Below, in pieces: positions 46,267 through 59,594 of a DNA stretch of 64,000 nucleotides. Position 1 is the stretch's first letter. Each line of letters starts with the position of its first letter. A model generated the notes under the pieces. It had not been told where the DNA came from. It ran no database searches and saw nothing but the letters and a program-made list of their open reading frames with translations. The stretch covers positions 2,728,001 through 2,792,000 of the forward strand of contig OX637797.1 of the NCBI GenBank assembly GCA_951802425.1. Reading direction: 5' to 3'. The DNA is from Clavaria fumosa. Its lineage: Eukaryota; Basidiomycota; Agaricomycetes; Agaricales; Clavariaceae. A program made the position numbers and the translations under genes.

Positions 46267-47184
46267 TGTAAGGACCATATGCGATCTAAACACGGAAACA
46301 TGACAGATACCGACTATCCAGATGTTTTGCGATCCAAAGAAATTACGTGCGATACGAACCGATAACGATCCGACACCGTCCGATAACGACCGATAGTATC
46401 CGATACATGTCCGATGTCGGACACTTCGGTCTTCAATCCCCCGTGACGATCACAGCCCACCGCTCTCACACACCGCCCACGCCTCTCTATTTCACCTCTC
46501 CAGCACGGTCAGCGCTCGACATACACACTATTCCATTCCCATTCCTTTATTTCATATACCATGCTGTAAATTTCATATTATGATCCCTTTCAACCATTCA
46601 ATCGTTTAAACGTTTCAAACCCTTTGCAGTACCTTGTCCATTGTTCTTAGTACCCCTTTGCTGTACCAGCCCCACTTTCCTTCAGTTTATGAGCGGTCCG
46701 GACATTTGCTAGTTATCGGACATTTCATTCCTCCGAGCTACTCATTTCCCTTGTGATATAACTCCTTCATGTAACCCTTCACGCGACATGGCGCTGTTCC
46801 ATGTGTTTTCCGGACATTTCCGTACATTCCAATTTGCTGTACTTACAGAACTGTACTTAAGTACACTCCGGACCTCTCTGAAATACAGCTTTCTGAACCC
46901 CTTCTCTCTGTTAGAAACCTCACCTAAGCTCACCCGTCGTCGCAACCTTCGATCCGCTGGCCTCCGTCGTTGCCGGCCCTTCGTCTTATCGCACCATCCT
47001 TATCGGATTTTATCGGACACATAGCAGAATATCCCGGACACCGTATATTTCTATTTCTCACACATTTTGAATTCATACTCCACATCCTCAAGGGTGTTTG
47101 GTGAATCTCTAACGCCTTACAGGAACCCCTGAAGGACTTGACTGTAATCAAGCAGTTGCAGCAAGAACCGTAATACCCACTACA
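46267..47184 (+). repeat. Element C 5' LTR (918 bp)
   Basis: Begins TGTAAGG, ends CACTACA. Contains six copies of CGGACA on one strand (46,418; 46,699; 46,717; 46,811; 47,014; 47,035) and a cluster of CCGATA-like hexamers at about 46,355-46,415. Short open frames in it recur identically in the other LTR and are not separate genes. Confidence 0.96.
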
Positions 47185-47573: not shown

Positions 47574-49571
47574 ATGGCCAACCAACCGAGATATCCGCTC
47601 CGTGGCGCCCACGGGGCCCCTGCCTTTGACGGAGTACCGACACACCTCAACCGGTACTTCGAGGACATCGACATCGTGCTCACCGGCGTCAACCCGGACG
47701 TTCCAGAACCCGATTTAATTCGGTACGCCAAGCACTATCTCGACACCGATACGTGTCTCCTCTGGGAGACTCTTTCACCTGACCCGGACCCGGTATGGAC
47801 GTGGGATACCTTCAAAGCGGCCGTCCGACGACTTTATCCAGGATCTGATGGAGGTCGCTTATTTTCCGTCGCCGACCTGGACCGTTTCATATCGGACTCG
47901 GCCCAAAAGGGAGTTTACACGCGCGCAGAACACGGAGAATACTATCGGGACTTTCTCCGGATCACCTCGCACTTGATCACATCACAGCGTATGTCCACAA
48001 ATGACAGGAACCGACTTTACATCCTCGGATTTGGGGATCATACAAGGCGTCGGATCGAAAGCCGACTCGCTATCATACTACCAAACCACCATCCGGAGGA
48101 TCCTTACCCCATGAATGAAGTACATGGTGCAGCTGAATTTCTTCTCTCCTCGACGTCCCCCCACTCTGCGACAACCGATCAACTTTCCGGACCCGTCCGT
48201 CTCGCATCTTCAGCCCCCGGGAGAGAAACGAAACCGGTAGTCAAGAAGGAAGAATTTGATATGTCCGCAGCATGGGCAACATTCGCTTCCACAATGGCTC
48301 GCCTGGAATCGATTTTGACAGCCCAATCTCTCGAACCGGCAAGACACTCCGCTCCCCGGACAACGAACTCTCCCGCAGGCCGGACGTGTAATTTCTGTTC
48401 GGAAATAGGTCATTTTGTTAGTGCCTGTCCGAAGGCCCTCGAATACATTAAGTCCGGCAAATGTATACGGAACACAGAAGGCAGGATTTGTCTCCCCTCC
48501 GGACGATATTTGCCAGGCACTATCTCAGGGAACAACCTATCCGAGCGCTTCGACAAGTACTACGCTACATACCAATCCCAGAACACGCAACCGGCGACAA
48601 CCGCGGTATTTGAAGCACAGCCGATCGGACAATCCGCTCACCCCCCGGACATGGAAGACGATTCGGACGAGGAAGATGACGAGAATACCGTGTTGGAAAA
48701 CATGGTCCGCACCTTTGCAAACGATGTCGCGAAGAAAGTAGACAAGGGCAAAAGGAAAGCACCCACACCCAGGAATACCGATCCTCAGCCATCTAGGTTA
48801 CCGCCCCCACCCGCCGTTGTTATTACGCCGCCTCAGGTCACTCGTCCATCAAAGCCGGAGAAAATCGAACGACCCGACGTCCAGTACCATTACCAAGCTC
48901 CGATCGAAAATCCGGTAACCGTTCAACAAGTATTCGATCGCGCACTCGACATGCCAGTCCGCGTCACACCTCGCGAACTACTCGCCATTTCCGGAGACAT
49001 CCGCAAAAAGATGAAGGATGTGGTTACCGCTCGTCGCGTTCCGGTCACCGCGTCCGTCGTACAGGATACGCTCTATACAAACATTACGGTCCCGGACACC
49101 TCCGATCTTGTTGTCGCCGTCGACGCTGCTCCGCTCCGCATCGTAGAAGGGATATTGGACAACCGGATCGCCGCGGAGTGCCTGCTCGACCAAGGCAGCT
49201 CAATCGTGGCAATGCGAAGAGACGTTTGGGAGAAACTCGGCAACCCACTACACTCCGAGAACGTTATTCACATGGAATCCTCTCATGGCACCATCGCTCC
49301 GACCCTCGGACTCATCAAGAATTTCCCCCTACAGATCGGTCCGTGCACATTCCATGTTCAAATGCAAGTAGCAGACACGTTGCCCTGCGAGGTTCTTGTC
49401 GGACGACCGTTTTTCATGTTAACCGGTTCCCAAACGATTGACCATCCCCACGGGGCCCAGGACCTTATTCTCAACGATCCAAACACCGGAGAAAGAATCA
49501 TAGTGCCAACGAAGGAGCGAATCCCGATCCGCAAATCCTTGAAGAACAAGAAACCGCATCCGGATTTTTGA
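47574..49571 (+). CDS. Element C Gag with C-terminal retropepsin-like domain
   Basis: From ATG 47,574 (MANQPRYPLRG) 665 codons are open. The first 200 residues form a Gag core (HLNRYFEDIDIVLTG, TWDTFKAAVRRLYPG, RLYILGFGDHTRRRIE). A zinc knuckle-like CNFCSEIGHFVSAC lies near residue 270, then an acidic disordered stretch. The C-terminal 150 residues look like an aspartic protease: ECLLDQGSSIVAMRRDVWEK with the variant D-Q-G, and VLVGRPFF. The same frame is open about 130 codons upstream into the LTR but has no ATG. The stop TGA (49,569-49,571) overlaps the pol frame at a T5 run. Confidence 0.88.
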   Translation: MANQPRYPLRGAHGAPAFDGVPTHLNRYFEDIDIVLTGVNPDVPEPDLIRYAKHYLDTDTCLLWETLSPDPDPVWTWDTFKAAVRRLYPGSDGGRLFSVADLDRFISDSAQKGVYTRAEHGEYYRDFLRITSHLITSQRMSTNDRNRLYILGFGDHTRRRIESRLAIILPNHHPEDPYPMNEVHGAAEFLLSSTSPHSATTDQLSGPVRLASSAPGRETKPVVKKEEFDMSAAWATFASTMARLESILTAQSLEPARHSAPRTTNSPAGRTCNFCSEIGHFVSACPKALEYIKSGKCIRNTEGRICLPSGRYLPGTISGNNLSERFDKYYATYQSQNTQPATTAVFEAQPIGQSAHPPDMEDDSDEEDDENTVLENMVRTFANDVAKKVDKGKRKAPTPRNTDPQPSRLPPPPAVVITPPQVTRPSKPEKIERPDVQYHYQAPIENPVTVQQVFDRALDMPVRVTPRELLAISGDIRKKMKDVVTARRVPVTASVVQDTLYTNITVPDTSDLVVAVDAAPLRIVEGILDNRIAAECLLDQGSSIVAMRRDVWEKLGNPLHSENVIHMESSHGTIAPTLGLIKNFPLQIGPCTFHVQMQVADTLPCEVLVGRPFFMLTGSQTIDHPHGAQDLILNDPNTGERIIVPTKERIPIRKSLKNKKPHPDF

Positions 49572-52500
49572 GAGCTGGAGCCTCGAATGTCCGCAAACCA
49601 ACGGACTTACCTCCGATCAATGCGGACACGGAAGCTATACCCAGATACGAGACTCCAGCCATTTTTCCTACTTCCGTTCACGTTCCCTTATCGTTTTCCC
49701 TTATAAACCCAGTCTCTCTCGACCCCTTCCCCTGTATCAGTATCTCGGACGTTTCTCTCGATTCCGCTGATTCCCCAGTCGCTATCGGACGTGAACCGTC
49801 GCGTCCAAATGTTGCAACCCCCTTGTACAACAAAACCCCCGAAATAAATTCCCTGTCTACGGACGCCGTTCTTCCAGTTTACTTGGGAAAGAAATATAAG
49901 AAAGTCGCGAATCGCGTCAATCCGATCAAAGCGACAGTACCCAAAGAATTCCGGATTGTCCGACGCCGACACCCGGACCCCCTAGCCGATATGCCAACTC
50001 TTCCGACCCATCCCCCCGATTTCACCCCCGGTCTTCGATACACTCAAAACCGGAAAGACACGCACAACGCCAACCCCACCGGATTCTTATGGCCGGAGGA
50101 AGAAAAACTCGTTCACCATCTTATTAAAGCCCAGGAAGACGCCTTCGCTTGGAAAGAGACCGAAAAAGGACGATTCGACGCAAAATACTTCGATCCGATT
50201 ATTATCCCGACAGTCGAACATATCCCTTGGATCTTCAAAAATATACCGATTCCCCCCGGTATTTACGACGAAGTTCTCAAAGTAATCCGGGAAAAGATCG
50301 CAGCCGGCGTTTATGAAGAATCCAACTCTTCTTATCGGTCCCAGTGGTTTTGCGTGTTAAAGAAAGACGGAAAGTCTCTCCGACTCGTGCACAACCTCCA
50401 GCCGCTTAACAAAATCACTATCGGCGATTCCGCGGTCCCCCCGATAATGGAGGTTTTTGCGGAATCATTCGCCGGACGCGGATGTTACGGATCACTCGAC
50501 CTTTTCGTCTCCTTCGATCAGCGGTCTCTGGACGAACGAAGCCGAGACCTCACCACGTTTCAAACCCCTCTCGGAGCAAAACGGCTCACCTGCGTCCCCA
50601 TGGGATACACCAACGCGACGCAGATTATGCATGGAGACGTCACGCATGTTCTACAAGATGAAATTCCGCACGTAACCATCCCATTCGTAGACGATGTAGC
50701 GATCAAGGGCCCGGAAACCCGATACGAGCTTCCGGACGGCACCTACGAGACGATCCCTGAGAATCCGCAAATACGACGATTTGTTTGGGAGCATTTAAAT
50801 AACGTCAACCGGGTGCTCCAACGAATCAAGAAAGTCGGAGGAACCTTTAACGGCAAGAAAACGACAATTTGCGTACCCGAAGCAGTCGTTACCGGACATA
50901 CGTGCACATACGAAGGACGAGTTCCGGATGCCTCCAACGTTCAGCGTATCCGGGACTGGCCTCCTTGCAAAACCCTGACCGATGTCCGATCATTTTTAGG
51001 GGTTTGCGGACTACTCCGGATATTCATTAAAAACTACGCCGTACTTGCCCGACCTCTTGTCAGTCTAACTCGCAAGGACGTGCCATTCAGATTCGAAAAA
51101 GAAGAACAAAACTCGATGGACCGACTCAAACACGCGATTCTGAACTCATCCGCCATCCGACCAATCGACTACCGCTCCGGACAACCCGTAATCCTCGCCG
51201 TCGACTCATCAAATATCGCCGTTGGTTTCGCACTCTTCCAAATTGGAGAAGATGGAATACGATATCCCTCCCGCTTTGGCTCCATTACCTGGAACGAACG
51301 CGAGGCCCGATACTCACAAGCAAAAATCGAATTATACGGACTCTTCCGCGCACTTCGGTCGTACCGGATTTACCTTATAGGCCTTCCGAAATTTACTGTC
51401 GAAATGGACGCGAAGTTCATTAAGGGTATGCTAAACAATCCGGACATTCAACCCAACGCTGCCATGAATCGATGGATTGCCGGTATACTACTCTTCGATT
51501 TCGATCTTGTTCATATTCCCGCAGATAAGCACACCGGAGCCGACGGACTATCACGCCGACGTGCCGCAGATGGTGAAGAAGATACCGAGTCTGAAGATCA
51601 CGAAGAATGGATCGATCGGAGCTACGTATTCGCCATGGAACACATGAATCGAGCACCGGACGCTTCCTACACATCCGAGACACGACTCGCCGGCATCACC
51701 CATACTCGCTTCAAAGTTTACACAGGATCGACGCTACTCAATTCGACGGTACCACCCGAGGAATCACCGACCCCGAACGAATCTTCCGCCGTCCTTATAC
51801 CCCGATCCGATGCAGCAAACAAAAGAGAAGAACAGATTCGCAAAATTGAATCTTTCCTTCGAAACCCGATCCGTCCCTCCGGCATTGACGCAAACCAGTT
51901 CCGACGACTGGTCCGCTCCGCATCCGAGTTCTTCATCCTAGATGACAAATTATGGCGACGCCGACCTAACGGATACCACCAAGTAGTACCTCCGGACCAC
52001 AAACGTCTCGCAATTATCACAGAGGCACACGATTCACTCGGCCACAAAGGCGTTTACGTTATCCGGACACGTATTCTAAATCGGTTCTGGTGGCCGGTGC
52101 TGGATCAAGACGTAAAATGGTTTGTCAAAACTTGTCACCAATGCCAAACTCGGCAAATCCGGAAGATCTTCATTCCACCGACGGTCGCTACACCGGCCGG
52201 TCTTTTCCGTCGAGCGCACATTGATACTATGTTCCTACCAAGAGCCCGCGGTTTCCGACTTCTCGTCCACGCCCGATGCTCGTTATCCGCATATCCGGAA
52301 GCAAGACCGCTACGAAACGAGACCGCCCGACTTCTCGGAACCTTCATATTCGAAGATATACTATGCCGATGGGGAGCAGTAGAAGAGATTATCACGGATA
52401 ACGGAGCCCCATTTATCAAAGCCCTCGATTTCCTTAAGAAACGGTACGGAATCCATCACATCCGTATATCCGGATACAACTCCCGCGCTAACGGCGTCAT

Positions 52501-53305
52501 CGAACGTGCCCATCGATCGGTCCGTGAGTCGTTAATCAAAGCAGCAGATGGAGACGAATCGAAATGGCCGGACGTTTTACCCTCAGTCATTTGGGCAGAA
52601 CGAACCACGATCCAACGGTCCACCGGCCACTCCCCATTTTACATCGCACATGGCGTCGAACCGCTTTTCCCCTTCGACATATCCGAAGCAACATATTTAA
52701 TTCCGACCGCCGACGCCCCGATGACCACTCCGGAACTGATAGCCCTTCGTGCCCGCCAACTGCAAAAACGAGAAGAAGATCTAGCAACAATCGCCGATAA
52801 AGTGCTCGCTGCCCGCAAACAATCCGTCAAGCAGTTCATCGACGCACACCGGAAGTCTATTATCGACTACGACTTCCAACCCGGATCGTTGGTATTGATC
52901 CGCAATTCGGCCGTTGAAATGGAATTAAATCGAAAAACAAAACCGCGATTCTTCGGACCGATGATCGTCGTTCGCCGAACACAATATGGCGCCTATATTC
53001 TCTCGGAACTCGACGGCGCCGTTTCCAAAATCCACTACGCAGCTTTCCGCATCATTCCCTACTATCCGAGGTCGCAAACATCGATTCCGGTCACTTCTAT
53101 CATCGACCAAACGACGGAGATAAACGAGGACATCTCTCCCTATCAAATACACGAGGCGTCACCCAACTCTATCGACAGAGAAGATGAGCAAAACCAAGCG
53201 GCTGACCTATCCGATGAATCCGATAATGAAACCACCGACGACGACACTGCAGAAACTCGTCCGCAACGCTCCGGAGCAACCCGGAACCTTCGGCCTCGCC
53301 ATTAA
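49568..53305 (+). CDS. Element C Pol: reverse transcriptase, RNase H, integrase
   Basis: 1,245 codons in the -1 frame relative to gag, without an initial ATG, so probably made as Gag-Pol by frameshift at the T5 run before the gag stop. RT: GVYEESNSSYRSQWFCVLKK, CYGSLDLFVSFDQ, the box FVDD (intact) and FLGVCGLLRIFIKNYA. RNase H: LAVDSSNIAVGFALFQ, EMDAKFIKG and HTGADGLSRR. Integrase: zinc ligands HDSLGH and CHQC, and a D,D-35-E-type core in HIDTMF, ITDNGAPF and NGVIERAHRS. A GPF-like module (FFGPMIVVRRTQYGAYIL) and an acidic, Thr/Asp-rich tail ending NLRPRH follow. No chromodomain. Confidence 0.93.
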   Translation: MRAGASNVRKPTDLPPINADTEAIPRYETPAIFPTSVHVPLSFSLINPVSLDPFPCISISDVSLDSADSPVAIGREPSRPNVATPLYNKTPEINSLSTDAVLPVYLGKKYKKVANRVNPIKATVPKEFRIVRRRHPDPLADMPTLPTHPPDFTPGLRYTQNRKDTHNANPTGFLWPEEEKLVHHLIKAQEDAFAWKETEKGRFDAKYFDPIIIPTVEHIPWIFKNIPIPPGIYDEVLKVIREKIAAGVYEESNSSYRSQWFCVLKKDGKSLRLVHNLQPLNKITIGDSAVPPIMEVFAESFAGRGCYGSLDLFVSFDQRSLDERSRDLTTFQTPLGAKRLTCVPMGYTNATQIMHGDVTHVLQDEIPHVTIPFVDDVAIKGPETRYELPDGTYETIPENPQIRRFVWEHLNNVNRVLQRIKKVGGTFNGKKTTICVPEAVVTGHTCTYEGRVPDASNVQRIRDWPPCKTLTDVRSFLGVCGLLRIFIKNYAVLARPLVSLTRKDVPFRFEKEEQNSMDRLKHAILNSSAIRPIDYRSGQPVILAVDSSNIAVGFALFQIGEDGIRYPSRFGSITWNEREARYSQAKIELYGLFRALRSYRIYLIGLPKFTVEMDAKFIKGMLNNPDIQPNAAMNRWIAGILLFDFDLVHIPADKHTGADGLSRRRAADGEEDTESEDHEEWIDRSYVFAMEHMNRAPDASYTSETRLAGITHTRFKVYTGSTLLNSTVPPEESPTPNESSAVLIPRSDAANKREEQIRKIESFLRNPIRPSGIDANQFRRLVRSASEFFILDDKLWRRRPNGYHQVVPPDHKRLAIITEAHDSLGHKGVYVIRTRILNRFWWPVLDQDVKWFVKTCHQCQTRQIRKIFIPPTVATPAGLFRRAHIDTMFLPRARGFRLLVHARCSLSAYPEARPLRNETARLLGTFIFEDILCRWGAVEEIITDNGAPFIKALDFLKKRYGIHHIRISGYNSRANGVIERAHRSVRESLIKAADGDESKWPDVLPSVIWAERTTIQRSTGHSPFYIAHGVEPLFPFDISEATYLIPTADAPMTTPELIALRARQLQKREEDLATIADKVLAARKQSVKQFIDAHRKSIIDYDFQPGSLVLIRNSAVEMELNRKTKPRFFGPMIVVRRTQYGAYILSELDGAVSKIHYAAFRIIPYYPRSQTSIPVTSIIDQTTEINEDISPYQIHEASPNSIDREDEQNQAADLSDESDNETTDDDTAETRPQRSGATRNLRPRH

Positions 53306-53365: not shown

Positions 53366-53401
<36 letters not shown>
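53366..53401 (+). repeat. 36-base adenine tract inside element C
   Basis: A pure A run begins about 60 bp after the pol stop codon, between pol (+) and the antisense gene (-). Its exact length may be affected by assembly slippage. Confidence 0.9.
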
Positions 53402-53543: not shown

Positions 53544-54905
53544 TTACTTAGAGGACGACTCGCCAAGGAGGAGCATCCGGAGCAGCTCCGCTCCGGCCTT
53601 CACCTGGTCCGCCCCCCTCTCCATCATCTCCAGCGCCCTATCGAGCGCCTCCCTCCCGGACACCCCTCGCGCCACCTCCCGCTCCTTCCGACTTGGTCCC
53701 GCCTCCGCCTTCTTCTTCTTTGCCGGCGGCTCCTCCACCAGCTCCACACTGGTATCCTCCTCAATCTCGTCCTCCTCCTCCGGCGTCGTCTCCTCGCGAA
53801 CCGGTACCCGCGTCGCACCTCGCCTCGGCCTCTTACTTCCGCTCGCTCCCGCCGCCTTCGGACCTGTTCCGATACGTTAGCAAATGCGGACCCGATACCT
53901 TCTCGACATACCTTCCGTTCCGGACACCGCCGCTCTCTCTGTTTTCGCTCCTGAAACACACCTATCACTTGTCTCATCATGAAAAATAAAAAGAATACCA
54001 CTTACCTCGCACAGCCGACAGACTGCACGATACCTTATACGTCCGGCACCACCGGCACGCTATCCCCTCCACTCCGTAGCACGCCCGCCACTTCCGGGTG
54101 CACTCCTTGCACCCCGGAACGTGCTCCTAATCATTATATCAGACGTCGAAAAAGCCTCACATATCTTAATTAACCACTCACCTTATCTCCAGGCTGCCGC
54201 GCAGCCCGGGACTCTATGTCGCTCTTCGCCCCGCCTCTCCTCCCTCGCCCTCGCTCCGCTGCCTTCCGCCTCGCGATCTCCACCCACACCGGAGTCGCCA
54301 TCATCCGCGCACCGTCCCGGTGCACGAACATCGGCTCCTCCACCGACTGCTCGCCTCCCCCGGCCACCGCACTCACCGCCGCCGCCGCCTCGCCCTCGTC
54401 GTCGCTGTCACTTACGACAATTAAGCGCGCCCGGGCAAGGCGCGCCCTCTTCTCGGCAGCCCTCGCCGCCTCCGCCCGCCTCTCCTCCGCCTCCGCCTCT
54501 GCTGCGGCCCGCTCAGTAGCCGCCCTCTCCTCGCTCGTGCGCTGTTTCTCGGCCTCGACCTCCTCCCGCCTTCTCGTCCGCTCAGCGGACCACTCGTCCC
54601 CGCGGAGCTTCCGCCACTTCTTGAGCCTTCGCGCGACCCGGACGAGTCCCTCGTCCACCTCCACGTCGTCGTCGATCGCTGCCACATATCCGGCAAGAAA
54701 ATCGTCCTAAAAACGTTGTCAGTGCGATACAAAAAAGTACGAAAGATTCTCGTTCACGCACCGCGTCACCCGCATACGTCCCCACCCACTCCGCGCACTC
54801 TCCATCCTGCCCCCGATCCGGCAACTCCTCGCCCGGCGCCATGGCCTGCGCCTCGGTCATCGCCTGGACTGCGTTTCGAAAGATTGAAGAGTCGAAGTTT
54901 TCCAT
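53544..54905 (-). CDS. Antisense spliced gene in element C: Zn2Cys6-like, coiled-coil protein
   Basis: Five exons on the minus strand: 54905-54762, 54706-54182, 54126-54006, 53950-53912 and 53863-53544. All four introns are GT-AG, 48-55 nt long, and the exons total 383 codons including the stop. The protein (382 aa) starts MENFDSSIFRNAVQAMTEAQ. It has an acidic segment, then a long charged Ala/Glu/Arg helix (about residues 80-140), a serine/acid patch VVSDSDDEGE, and a cysteine domain in exon 3 with spacing C-x2-C-x6-C-x7-C-x2-C-x6-C (CKECTRKWRAC, then CRWCRTYKVSC). A basic, NLS-like PAKKKKAE and a helix ending LLRMLLLGESSSK close it. The spacing fits fungal zinc-cluster DNA-binding domains; DNA binding is inferred. 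I know no named family for the whole protein. Confidence 0.8.
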
Positions 54906-55062
54906 TGTCGGAGAGTTGACGTGTTGCTGTCGCTGGAGAAAACACAAGGGTGTGTTTGGACCTATGTGCACCCACACGACGCGTACTTCACGATCAACAA
55001 ACCGTTATTTGGCCTTGTTTGGTTGCAACCGAGGGCGGTTGCATTTTCAGCCCCCGGGAGAA

Positions 55063-55980
55063 TGTAAGGACCATATGCGATCTAAACACGGAAACATGAC
55101 AGATACCGACTATCCGGATGTTTTGCGATCCAAAGAAATTACGTGCGATACGAACCGATAACGATCCGACACCGTCCGATAACGACCGATAGTATCCGAT
55201 ACATGTCCGATGTCGGACACTTCGGTCTTCAATCCCCCGTGACGATCACAGCCCACCGCTCTCACACACCGCCCACGCCTCTCTATTTCACCTCTCCAGC
55301 ACGGTCAGCGCTCGACATACACACTATTCCATTCCCATTCCTTTATTTCATATACCATGCTGTAAATTTCATATTATGATCCCTTTCAACCATTCAATCG
55401 TTTAAACGTTTCAAACCCTTTGCAGTACCTTGTCCATTGTTCTTAGTACCCCTTTGCTGTACCAGCCCCACTTTCCTTCAGTTTATGAGCGGTCCGGACA
55501 TTTGCTAGTTATCGGACATTTCATTCCTCCGAGCTACTCATTTCCCTTGTGATATAACTCCTTCATGTAACCCTTCACGCGACATGGCGCTGTTCCATGT
55601 GTTTTCCGGACATTTCCGTACATTCCAATTTGCTGTACTTACAGAACTGTACTTAAGTACACTCCGGACCTCTCTGAAATACAGCTTTCTGAACCCCTTC
55701 TCTCTGTTAGAAACCTCACCTAAGCTCACCCGTCGTCGCAACCTTCGATCCGCTGGCCTCCGTCGTTGCCGGCCCTTCGTCTTATCGCACCATCCTTATC
55801 GGATTTTATCGGACACATAGCAGAATATCCCGGACACCGTATATTTCTATTTCTCACACATTTTGAATTCATACTCCACATCCTCAAGGGTGTTTGGTGA
55901 ATCTCTAACGCCTTACAGGAACCCCTGAAGGACTTGACTGTAATCAAGCAGTTGCAGCAAGAACCGTAATACCCACTACA
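55063..55980 (+). repeat. Element C 3' LTR (918 bp)
   Basis: Same length and almost the same sequence as 46,267-47,184. A short purine run, GGGAGAA, precedes it and may be the polypurine tract. Confidence 0.96.
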
Positions 55981-57122
55981 GCGTCTCGACCTGCCAACTT
56001 CGCCTTGTCAGGGTATTGCTGGAAGAAGTCCCGGAGCAACAGTGCAACATTAGTGAGGTTGCGACGAGGTTCCCAGGTGTTCTCCTCTGCAGGGTATCCT
56101 AACCACTTCACCAAATATTTCACTCCCCGTCCAACCTTCTTGACATCAAGAATTTCCTCCACCTCATACTCCAAGTGGTCGTCGTCAATCGTGGGGGGCG
56201 GGGGTGGAGGCAAGTTCTGGGAAGGGAAAGAGGGAGCAATATATGGGGTGAGTAGCAACTCATTGAAAACCCAGTGAATGCGCCATGCTTGGGGGAGCTT
56301 GAGTCGGTATGCTGCTGGTCCAACCTTCTCTTTGATAGTGAAGGGTCCAGCCCGCTTGTTGTCAAGCTTCTTGGATGGTTGATCCATTTTCAGGTTCCGG
56401 GTATCCAGCCAGACTAAGTCCCCCTTTGAGTATTCACAACTCGGGCACTTTCCTTTATCATAGCTAGCCTTCATCGCATCTGCCGCCTTCCCCATTGCAT
56501 CCCTGGCTGCTCTTCGGGATTCCATGAGCTTGGCCATCCACTCGTCTGCTGCAGGGTTCACTTCAGAAGGCGGCCGGATACCACCATTCCAAGGGTGCCA
56601 GCCATACTCCAGATAGAAAGGTGTGAATCCAGTGGCTGAGTGCTCACGGTTATTGAGCGCGAACTCGGCTGTGGATAGCCACTCTGCCCAATCATCCTGC
56701 AGATGGTCAACATAGGCCTGGAGATACACTTCAACCTCCTGATTGACCCACTCTGTCTGTCCATCTGTTTGTGGGTGGAAGGCAGTGCTCGGGTTTGCCT
56801 TAACTCCAATCATCCCATAGAACTCCCTCATGAATCTGGACACAAATTGGGTTCCCCGGTCACTCACAACTTTCTGCGGGACTCCATGGTCGCGGAAGAC
56901 CCGGTCTCGAAGGATCCAAGCAGCACCAAGTCCCGTGAGGTCAAGGCCAATAGCTTCGATGAGAGTTCGTTTTGTAAACTTGTCGACAATGACAAGGATC
57001 GCATTGTGACCATGTGAGAGGGGGAAAGGCCCAACAATGTCCCAAGAGATGACTGCCCAGGGGCTCTCAGAGACAGGGTGCGGATGGAGCAGAGCAGCGC
57101 GCCTGGTACAATCAGGCTTGAT
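55981..57122 (-). pseudogene. Element B pol, 3' part: integrase core and chromodomain
   Basis: It continues the pol frame after the single stop. The integrase core contains VVSDRGTQFVSRFMREFYG and PSTAFHPQTDGQTEWVNQE with the catalytic Asp and Glu regions present. The GPF module (KRAGPFTIKEKVGPAAYRLK) follows. The C-terminal chromodomain, YEVEEILDVKKVGRGVKYLV with WLGYPAEENTWEP, keeps its aromatic residues. Element C interrupts it after AGRDA; the last codons and TAA lie on the far side at 46,253-46,266. Chromodomains of this type guide integration to modified histones in other chromoviruses. Confidence 0.9.
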
Positions 57123-59594
57123 TCATTGGCATGTTTCGCATCCACCTGCATACCGATTGGAATCCTTCACCATGCCCACCCACCAGTAGGACCTCAGCAG
57201 AGCCGCCCTCAGTTTCCGTGGACCAGGGTGCCCTGTGATGGGGAGGTCATGCTCAAAGGTGAGCACTGCCTCACATGCTTCTGGGGGCACCCAAGTGATT
57301 TCTGCCTTCCGCCAGAGTCCCATCTGATCTCTCGTCCACTCATCATCAAGCTCCTCCGGCTTCTGCACATATACCGCGCTGTTTTTCTGGAGTAGCATCT
57401 CCATCTCTGATGTGAATGATGTGCAGGTCTCAGCCTCTGGGAAGACCTGTACTGGTGCATCCTCCTCCACCATCTCTCCATAATCTGGCCTCCGTGAGAG
57501 TGCATCAGCTTTTGTGTTTGACTTCCCAGTACAGTACTTGATCTCGAAGTCAAAGCACTGGAGCTCTCCAACCCAATGGACCTGCCTCGGTTTCAACTTC
57601 TGGGGCTTCCGGAAGTACTGGAGGTTAGCATGGTCCGTCCAGATTTCGATAGTCTCTTCCACCCCAATCAGGTAAGCCCGCCACTCGCGTAGTGCCCGGA
57701 TTACAGCCAGGAACTCCTTGTCGTACACATCGTAATTCTTCTCAGCTGCAGTGAGGGCTTTGGAGATGTAGTCTACAACTCTCCAAGTCCCATCCACCTG
57801 CTGCTGTGAGAGAACTCCTCCAGTGGCCAAGTTGCTCACATCCGTTTCTACCTTCCATCTCCCTTTGTCTTGTGGTAGAGCCAAGACTGGGGCTGATACT
57901 AGTGCCAGGCGGAGATCTTGGAAGGCTGCTTCCTCCTCCTCCTCCCATCTCCATGGGACTTTCCCTGTCAGCTGGAAGAGTGGTTTTGCCTGGGCAGAGA
58001 GGTTCGGGATGTGCCGGCGGAGGTAGTTCAGCATCCCGTTGAATCTCTGTACCTCTTTCACATTTTTCGGTCTGGGCCAGTTATGGATCGCCGCGCCTTT
58101 AGCTGGGTCATGCTCTAGACGGTTGTGGGAGATCTTCATCCCCAGGAAGAAAACCTCACTCTTCTTGAACTCGCACTTGCTGAGTCTGAGACACAGGCCA
58201 TTCTCCCCAAACTTCTTCAAGACCCGATCCATCCAATACCGATGTGTAGCCAAATCCTCTGCAAACACTATAACATCATTGACATAGGCTCGGACATGCC
58301 CCCCTGCAATCTCTTCTCTCAACACATGGTTCATGAAGTGCTGGAAGGTTGCAGGCGTGTTCTGCAGCCCAAACCACATAACTGCCAGTTTGAAGAGTCC
58401 ACGAGGCATTAGGAAAGCACAGCGGTGCTGATGTTCTGGCCAGACTTGCATCGATGGGAAACCTCCTTTCGCATCAATCTTGGAATAGATGGTTGCCCCC
58501 TTTAACACATCCACAGTGTCTTGTATGAGGGGGAGGGGGTACTTGTCTTTGATTAGATACGAGTTCAGCCTAGAGTAATCGATGATCGGCTGCAGCTTGT
58601 CCTTCTCACGTTTGAAGAAGAAGGGGCTCGCGTACGGGGACTTCAAAGGTCGGATTCGTCCAGAAGCTAGCTGCTCATCCACCCAGCGATTCATTTCCAC
58701 CATCTCTTCTTGCATCAGAGAGTATAGCTTAGAGGAGAGGTGTCCAGGGTCTGTTTTAAACTCGATTTTGATATCAAAGTCAGGGCAGGAGTGGGGGAGC
58801 TCATCCCACTTTGCTTCACTAAAAACCAAAGGGTAGCGGCTGGGCCAATCAGGGGTAGGGCCAGTGTTGGGAAAACGGGTGTCTGGGATACTGGCCGAGG
58901 CCAGGGTACTCACTTTTGGTGGAACTGAGGGTTGAACAGGAGACCGGTGGCTGTGTGGGGAGGAGGCACAGGTGTTGGGGCAGCGGGTGAGCCTTACTTC
59001 AGCTTTCACCCAGTCAATCTCTGGATTATGACACTTTAGCCAATCATGCCCAAAGATCGCCATGTGGGACTGGGTCTTCCCTAGCAGGAAGTGGATCCAC
59101 TCCTGGTGGTCGCCAACTGTCACAAGCAGCTCCATCCCATACCGGATCTTACCATCTCTGTTCTGTGTTCCATCCACATTATACATGGTGATTGGATTCA
59201 GCAAGGGAGATGGTTCCAATCCCACTTTTTTCACCCACTCCAAGTCCATAAAGCAGTTGGTGCAGCCTGAGTTGACAAGGGCTTTTGTAGTTGCCCCTTT
59301 GCCAGTGCTGAGAGCCTCCAGGTGCACCTGGATGGAGAGCTCTCGGGGCATGCACAATAGGGTGTCCTTCAGCACCTCTGCAAGGTGCTTTGTTGGCTTC
59401 ACTTGGCTGCTAGTCCCCTTTTCTCTTTTCAGTATTTCACTTTTAGCGGTTTCCGTTTCCGCTTTGTCCTTCACCTCAGCCCCAATCTGGGTGTGTCTCC
59501 ACTGCAAGATAGTGTATTTTGGGATACTAGCTGTGGGTACAGGGACGGGAGGGGGGCTGGGATATCTACTCCTGAGACTCCAGTTCGGACTCAC
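57123..59594 (-). pseudogene. Element B pol: protease, RT, RNase H, start of integrase
   Basis: An 823-codon open stretch. Retropepsin appears as ALVNSGCTNCFMD, where the catalytic Asp of D-S-G is Asn. RT has SGRIRPLKSPYASPFFFKR, KIDAKGGFPSM and MWFGLQNTPATFQHFMNHVL, and its YxDD box reads YVND (Asn codon 58,278-58,280). RNase H has ETDVSNLATGGVLS, DKEFLAVI and IWTDHANLQYFRK. The integrase zinc domain begins (LPITGHPGPRKLRAALLRSY) and the frame stops at TGA 57,125-57,123 directly after CETCQ, where Arg is expected. Confidence 0.9.

Follow-up and report, generated by a model that had tools for sequence, protein, structure and literature searches.

The window (the whole stretch of 64,000 nucleotides analysed here) carries an LTR retrotransposon, referred to as element C, whose two LTRs of 918 bp each differ at a single position (LTR base 54), have the termini TGT...ACA, and are flanked on both outer sides of the element by GCGT (Table 1). 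Between the LTRs are overlapping gag and pol ORFs and, tail to tail with pol, a gene on the opposite strand. Since pol encodes reverse transcriptase (RT), RNase H, and then integrase, and the element has LTRs and a target duplication, element C belongs to the Ty3/gypsy type. The Pfam matches along pol are, in order, RT_RNaseH (55.5 bits), RT_RNaseH_2 (55.4 bits), and Integrase_H2C2 (62.8 bits), together with an RVT_1 match of 28.0 bits, just below its cut-off of 29.6, and a weak match to the integrase core (rve_3, 13.3 of 26.5 bits). The matches in gag, to a CCHC knuckle and an aspartyl protease, are all sub-threshold; gag residues 369-489 also give a sub-threshold match to DUF4100 (PF13352, 22.7 of 27.9 bits). 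At 49563-49571, by eye, gag ends in GAT TTT TGA and is overlapped by pol in the -1 frame, which suggests slippage on the T run at the stop codon.

Table 1. Features of element C in the window (positions are those of the window).
Feature	Position	Strand	Remarks
5' LTR	46267..47184	+	918 bp
CCGAY array, U3 of 5' LTR	46359..46415	+	as in 3' LTR
gag ORF	47574..49571	+	665 aa
pol ORF	49568..53305	+	RT, RNase H, integrase zinc-binding domain; overlaps gag end in another frame
Run of 36 A	53366..53401	+	directly after pol end, before antisense gene
Antisense gene, exon 5	53544..53863	-	acidic tract, basic tracts, conserved C-terminal end
Antisense gene, exon 4	53912..53950	-	39 nt
Antisense gene, exon 3	54006..54126	-	six-cysteine motif
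C-x2-C-x6-C-x7-C-x2-C-x6-C motif	54025..54111	-	
Antisense gene, exon 2	54182..54706	-	in-frame deletion, shorter than in other copies
Antisense gene, exon 1	54762..54905	-	begins with ATG
Stretch between antisense ATG and 3' LTR	54906..55062	-	157 bp, leader and possible promoter
3' LTR	55063..55980	+	
Six CCGAY units, U3 of 3' LTR	55155..55211	+	10/11-bp steps

The spacer between the end of pol and the antisense gene differs in length among copies of the element, and other low-complexity tracts occupy it in diverged copies. On the other side of the gene, the 157-bp leader, which has a purine-rich GGGAGAA at its LTR end, may serve as a promoter. Element C adjoins a minus-strand gypsy element (55981-59594) in a nested insertion; this neighbour has an ORF for RT, RNase H, and an integrase zinc-binding domain at 57123-59594, and an integrase ORF at 55944-56867 with a part that by eye resembles a chromodomain. 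No Rfam family was matched anywhere in the window at gathering thresholds.

Splicing of the minus strand from 54905 to 53544 removes four introns of 55, 55, 55, and 48 nt, all of them GT...AG, and leaves 1149 nt, i.e., 382 codons and a stop, confirming the unbroken minus-strand gene with four canonical introns described in the sequence-only reading. Exon 3 (CKECTRKWRACYGVEGIACRWCRTYKVSC) likewise bears out the six-cysteine spacing reported there, C-x2-C-x6-C-x7-C-x2-C-x6-C. The length of 382 codons is peculiar to the window copy, as the 19 open copies fetched from elsewhere in the genome encode 440 or 445 aa (18 copies) or 475 aa (L021). Compared with these 19, exon 2 of the window copy is shorter by 168-273 nt and its exon 5 by 6 nt; the window copy is an in-frame deletion form of the gene. 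In L021, exon 2 has 798 nt, the added length being a multiple of 3. A gene on the sense strand was also considered for this region, where stop-free sense stretches reach up to 320 codons, and is disfavoured by substitutions that fall at antisense third positions and by the frame-keeping of the spliced antisense gene.

The genome searched for further copies was the window's own (48.8 Mb, 17 contigs). DNA of the antisense gene matches at least 40 loci including the window (40 of 154 candidates were scored). Twenty stretches were selected by their gene match, so that the presence of the gene in all of them is by choice, and in all 20 it is located between pol (or a pol remnant) and the 3' LTR, with pol rearranged in four (L013, L023, L024, and L027). 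The frame is open with the same splice sites in 19 of the 20, while in the remaining copy (L029) a 35-nt insertion causes a frameshift. Apart from L029, exon length differences among the fetched copies are multiples of 3, whereas intron 1 drifts between 54 and 60 nt, a contrast that supports the frame and, at intron 1, splicing. In a test independent of the gene, a gene match was sought within 8 kb of the best 40 of 156 gag candidates, and an opposite-strand match (a match in sequence, open or not) was found beside 39 of them. In the fortieth (L055), the gene is internally deleted to ~600 nt and has lost the cysteine exon; three gene loci have no gag among the gag matches listed. Copies with a damaged gene (L029 and L055) have also spread, which we count against a regulatory function of the gene. 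Among 18 of the fetched copies, the two 918-bp LTRs differ at no position in nine, at one in eight, and at two in one (L013 and L021, each with one LTR cut at the fetched edge, are outside this count). The element C family is young, as had been claimed for the window copy, and open frames recur among its other copies within this one genome.

More than 50 diverged relatives of the gene were found among the matches listed (270 in total), and eight diverged loci were fetched, picked because both gene ends were among the matches listed. In all eight, the four introns occupy identical positions and retain their GT and AG termini, in line with the earlier claim that the introns survive retrotransposition, and the six cysteines are invariant in all nine aligned sequences. 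The gene lies tail to tail with the end of pol in seven of the eight; in L033, there was no pol match within the stretch fetched. As expected of old copies, four of the eight have internal stops and three have AAG in place of the start ATG, such that an open frame starting with ATG is present in L031 and L033 alone, the latter having an altered end. The three AAG codons (in L032, L037, and L038, two of which are sisters in the tree) lie inside an A-run. Each intron length in the diverged loci is divisible by 3 and intron 1 contains no stop, so that an open frame could be kept there without removing intron 1, and the case for introns in these loci rests on the conserved splice ends and on the stops in introns 2 and 4. 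Relative to the young family, L031-L038 appear to have many C-to-T and G-to-A changes at CpG (Arg to Trp/Gln), which suggests methylation-linked decay. No relative was confirmed by searching the spliced protein against viral contigs, or a 38-residue exon 3 profile against bacterial and archaeal genome contigs.

A second feature of the element is a set of CGG-type motifs in U3 and in gag-pol. In U3, CCGAY units (CCGG in some copies) occur at offsets of ~82, 92, 103, 113, 123, and 134 from the LTR start. The window LTR has six units at offsets 92 to 144, in steps of 10 or 11 bp (about one DNA turn), which in the 3' LTR lie ~250-306 bp upstream of the antisense ATG; the array is the same in the 5' LTR, as the LTRs differ only at base 54. 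At least three array positions are kept in all nine LTR heads (window and eight diverged), with gaps where units were lost, and single units are missing in several heads, often through C-to-T or G-to-A changes. No other 50 columns of the LTR head are as poorly conserved as those of the array (mean identity 0.66), which we also count against a regulatory function.

In gag-pol (47574-53305), CGGAC and CCGGA rank highest of all 5-mers when compared with synonymous shuffles (z of 6.7 and 6.6, respectively), with 68 CCGGA observed vs. 33 expected and 47 CGGAC vs. 21. Neither shows an excess in the neighbouring gypsy ORFs or in the one control set of 12.9 kb (CCGGA 17 vs. 21, CGGAC 30 vs. 27), which consisted of six window ORFs (four with Pfam host domains and two without) and, from each of four Hsp70 loci (three lie close together on a single contig), the longest stop-free stretch. 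The longer word TCCGGA was observed 6, 5, and 8 times in the three frames of gag-pol vs. 1.9, 1.7, and 2.4 expected, and this excess in every frame points to a nucleic-acid signal rather than a codon-pair effect. TCCGGA is also in excess in two diverged pol genes (9 vs. 2.9 and 8 vs. 2.3 expected). Of the CCGGA/TCCGG sites, 26 of 38 and 21 of 36 are shared with diverged pol, where CG-containing 5-mers give 0.589 and 0.405, respectively; over a further 64 codons of L054, the count is 0 of 3.

Proteins of the Zn2Cys6 type recognise CGG triplets. The CGG-type motif and the predicted protein would therefore fit each other; the argument is indirect, and the motif test was itself prompted by the sequence. 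The excess could instead come from a mutation or codon-context bias of the element, with no binding involved, an explanation that is compatible with the other readings and that we take as a serious, if not the favoured, possibility. Consistent with such a bias, the excess is roughly twofold, emerged from exploratory inspection, and was judged against a single control set, while GTCCGG shows no excess in gag-pol and CGGAC none in the pol of L054 (8 vs. 6.9). A bias fits less easily with two CGG words heading an unbiased list of all 5-mers, with the TCCGGA excess in all three frames, with the lack of any excess in the control set and the neighbouring gypsy ORFs, and with site sharing that, apart from the three sites in L054, is somewhat above that of other CG-containing 5-mers.

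As to the protein, no family other than Zn_clus (PF00172) gives a match in all nine members, and most of these matches are weak. That of the window copy reaches 10.3 bits, below the Pfam gathering cut-off of 21, a further point counted against a regulator, and one of the six members scanned singly passes this cut-off (L033, 22.2 bits, in two partial stretches). Scores above that of Zn_clus, each below the respective family's own cut-off, were obtained for zinc_ribbon_6 in three of the six members and, slightly, for PHD_P300 in the window copy. An AlphaFold2 model of exon 3 (single sequence, 40 residues) is of low confidence (pLDDT 62.4, pTM 0.30) and contains strands; GAL4-type clusters have helices. 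A profile search against solved structures (PDB) gave no convincing match (best E 3.7, next 4). Given the sub-cut-off scores, the poor exon 3 model, and the lack of a good structure match, we call the protein Zn2Cys6-like and do not assign it to the Zn2Cys6 family: the Zn2Cys6-like character proposed in the sequence-only reading holds for the cysteine spacing and not for the PF00172 cut-off, and membership is not established. Outside the cysteine motif, the sequence is charged over a long stretch and includes an acidic tract, basic tracts such as AKKKK and KRPRR, and an end that is strongly conserved; a nuclear role is predicted.

It is also conceivable, though we consider it unlikely, that the gene encodes a maintained accessory protein that does not bind DNA, with the six cysteines forming a zinc ribbon or another structural zinc site. 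Such a protein would act on RNA, on Gag particles, or on nuclear transport of the integration complex, and TCCGGA, present in the transcribed sense strand, would be an RNA signal or unrelated. The zinc_ribbon_6 scores and the strands in the low-confidence exon 3 model agree with this explanation, but Zn_clus alone is matched, if mostly weakly, by all members, the spacing of the cysteines is that of a Zn2Cys6 cluster, and related words are phased in U3, which may fall outside the RNA.

The substitution pattern bears on whether the gene is maintained at all. Between L022 and the eight diverged loci, dN/dS is 0.214-0.269 by NG86, at dS of 0.46-0.90, and 0.125-0.200 by YN00; closer pairs reach 0.47 (NG86) and 0.59 (YN00), values to be expected if many of their differences arose once the copies had inserted. 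Most changes are at third codon positions (e.g., 49, 52, and 119 at positions 1, 2, and 3). For comparison, the end of pol (last 133-158 codons, seven diverged loci) has dN/dS of 0.19-0.35, a range that omits one 27-codon fragment at 0.13, and the gene resembles it in dN/dS and has synonymous divergence of the same order. These dN/dS values are pairwise and all from within one genome, and the comparisons are non-independent, as the loci fall into a few clades of the tree (iqtree, codon model). Judged by these codon-level patterns, selection maintains the antisense gene as an accessory gene of a young Ty3/gypsy family with many copies. The earlier proposal of a maintained antisense cargo is thus upheld by a dN/dS of 0.21-0.27 across diverged loci of the same genome, not near 1, and by the gene matches beside 39 of the best 40 gag copies.

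Passive carriage of a recently captured host transcription-factor gene appears improbable. The host genome does have candidate sources, with 16 Zn_clus matches over the cut-off, and the introns would place any capture at the DNA rather than the mRNA level; however, the gene sits beside pol in subfamilies separated by the above dS and has a low dN/dS, it has diverged synonymously about as far as pol, and no host parent gene was seen among the matches listed (part of 270). Most improbable is that the antisense transcript rather than a protein does the work, tuning silencing as dsRNA with the genomic RNA, an option raised for antisense ORFs in the accessible part of a plant review (PMC7264820) and in keeping with the antisense layout, since the low dN/dS, the third-position substitutions, and the frame-keeping exon indels beside a drifting intron 1 amount to codon-level selection and frame-keeping that point to a protein.

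The reading we favour, with a probability of roughly one half, is that the gene encodes a regulator that would act on the element's own CGG sites. It builds on the observed anatomy, conservation, purifying selection, youth, and motif excess of the family. Leftward transcription of the antisense gene would probably start from a promoter located either in the 157-bp leader or in U3 of the 3' LTR. The short introns would be spliced out of this antisense transcript; in the genomic RNA they are in reverse orientation, and for that reason they would survive retrotransposition. The encoded protein would probably be nuclear and Zn2Cys6-like and recognise CGG-type half-sites of element C, with the phased U3 array as its chief target. 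It may govern transcription of the sense strand, transcription of its own gene, or the silencing of the element. Expression and splicing are predicted in this scheme, as are nuclear location, DNA binding, and the direction of the effect, and activation, repression, and counter-silencing are not separable from sequence. More doubtful is an extended form of the scheme, in which the target word of the zinc cluster (TCCGGA/TCCGAT) would be written throughout the element, synonymously in the three frames of gag and pol and helically phased in U3. Were that so, the element would be marked from end to end for the regulator it encodes, whether for self-activation or for a VANC-like hold-off of silencing.

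Antisense genes in LTR retrotransposons are known, and the comparisons below draw on the accessible parts of the sources cited. The sequence-only reading had been aware of no fungal element with this layout, and in this respect it does not hold, as Boty of Botrytis/Sclerotinia carries the antisense gene brtn (PMC7264820; Zhao et al., 2011, Virology, referenced in PMC8365987). Similar to element C, Boty is a fungal LTR retrotransposon with an extra antisense gene between pol and the 3' LTR, a likeness drawn from the described layout and not from sequence. The general layout is therefore already known, while the intron-bearing, zinc-cluster-like fungal form looks new: the literature searched, mostly outside subscription papers, yielded no fungal element whose antisense gene has several introns and a zinc-cluster-like motif. 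The word "antisense" does not occur in the accessible text of PMC3411680.

In plants, the aORF-3R elements, such as maize Grande (gene23), rice RIRE2, and Silene Retand, likewise have an antisense gene between pol and the 3' LTR that is kept in most copies (PMC7264820, PMC11963269), and element C shows the same combination of a coding antisense gene, its position between pol and the 3' LTR, and its presence in most copies. The antisense gene of Grande has its own promoter and a nuclear product, and the TRP28 domain (PF04195) of Retand is predicted to bind DNA (PMC7264820, PMC11963269). The plant genes differ from that of element C in their domains (TRP28 in Retand), and the word "intron" is absent from the accessible text of both PMC7264820 and PMC11963269. 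According to the former, a review of 2020, antisense ORFs located between pol and the 3' LTR have no known function. To this question the element C family brings at least 40 near-identical gene copies and diverged subfamilies in the same genome, evidence at the codon level that the protein matters, introns that would provide an antisense-specific splice signal, and a candidate word for binding. Should the fungus prove cultivable, a gene of this kind could be tested directly for its function.

VANDALs are DNA transposons rather than LTR elements. In VANDAL21 of Arabidopsis, the protein VANC21 reads a short motif that is enriched in its own element, in arrays that change by repeat gain and loss, and counters silencing (PMC5735166). 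Element C is likened to it by motif enrichment alone, the binding of motif by protein being putative here, and differs in that the element C words are dense in coding sequence as well, unlike the VANC21 motif, which mostly occupies non-coding regions. If the element C protein does read an element-wide motif, this would be a self-marking system of which we have seen none for LTR elements, in a literature search not aimed exactly at that point.

The closest functional model is hbz of HTLV-1, an antisense gene transcribed from the 3' LTR into a spliced transcript, whose nuclear product lowers expression from the 5' LTR (PMC10186651). The layout of element C and the conservation of its splice sites are consistent with this model, for which homology is not claimed: hbz encodes a bZIP protein of a retrovirus, whereas the element C gene encodes a putative zinc-cluster-like protein and has four introns inside its coding sequence.
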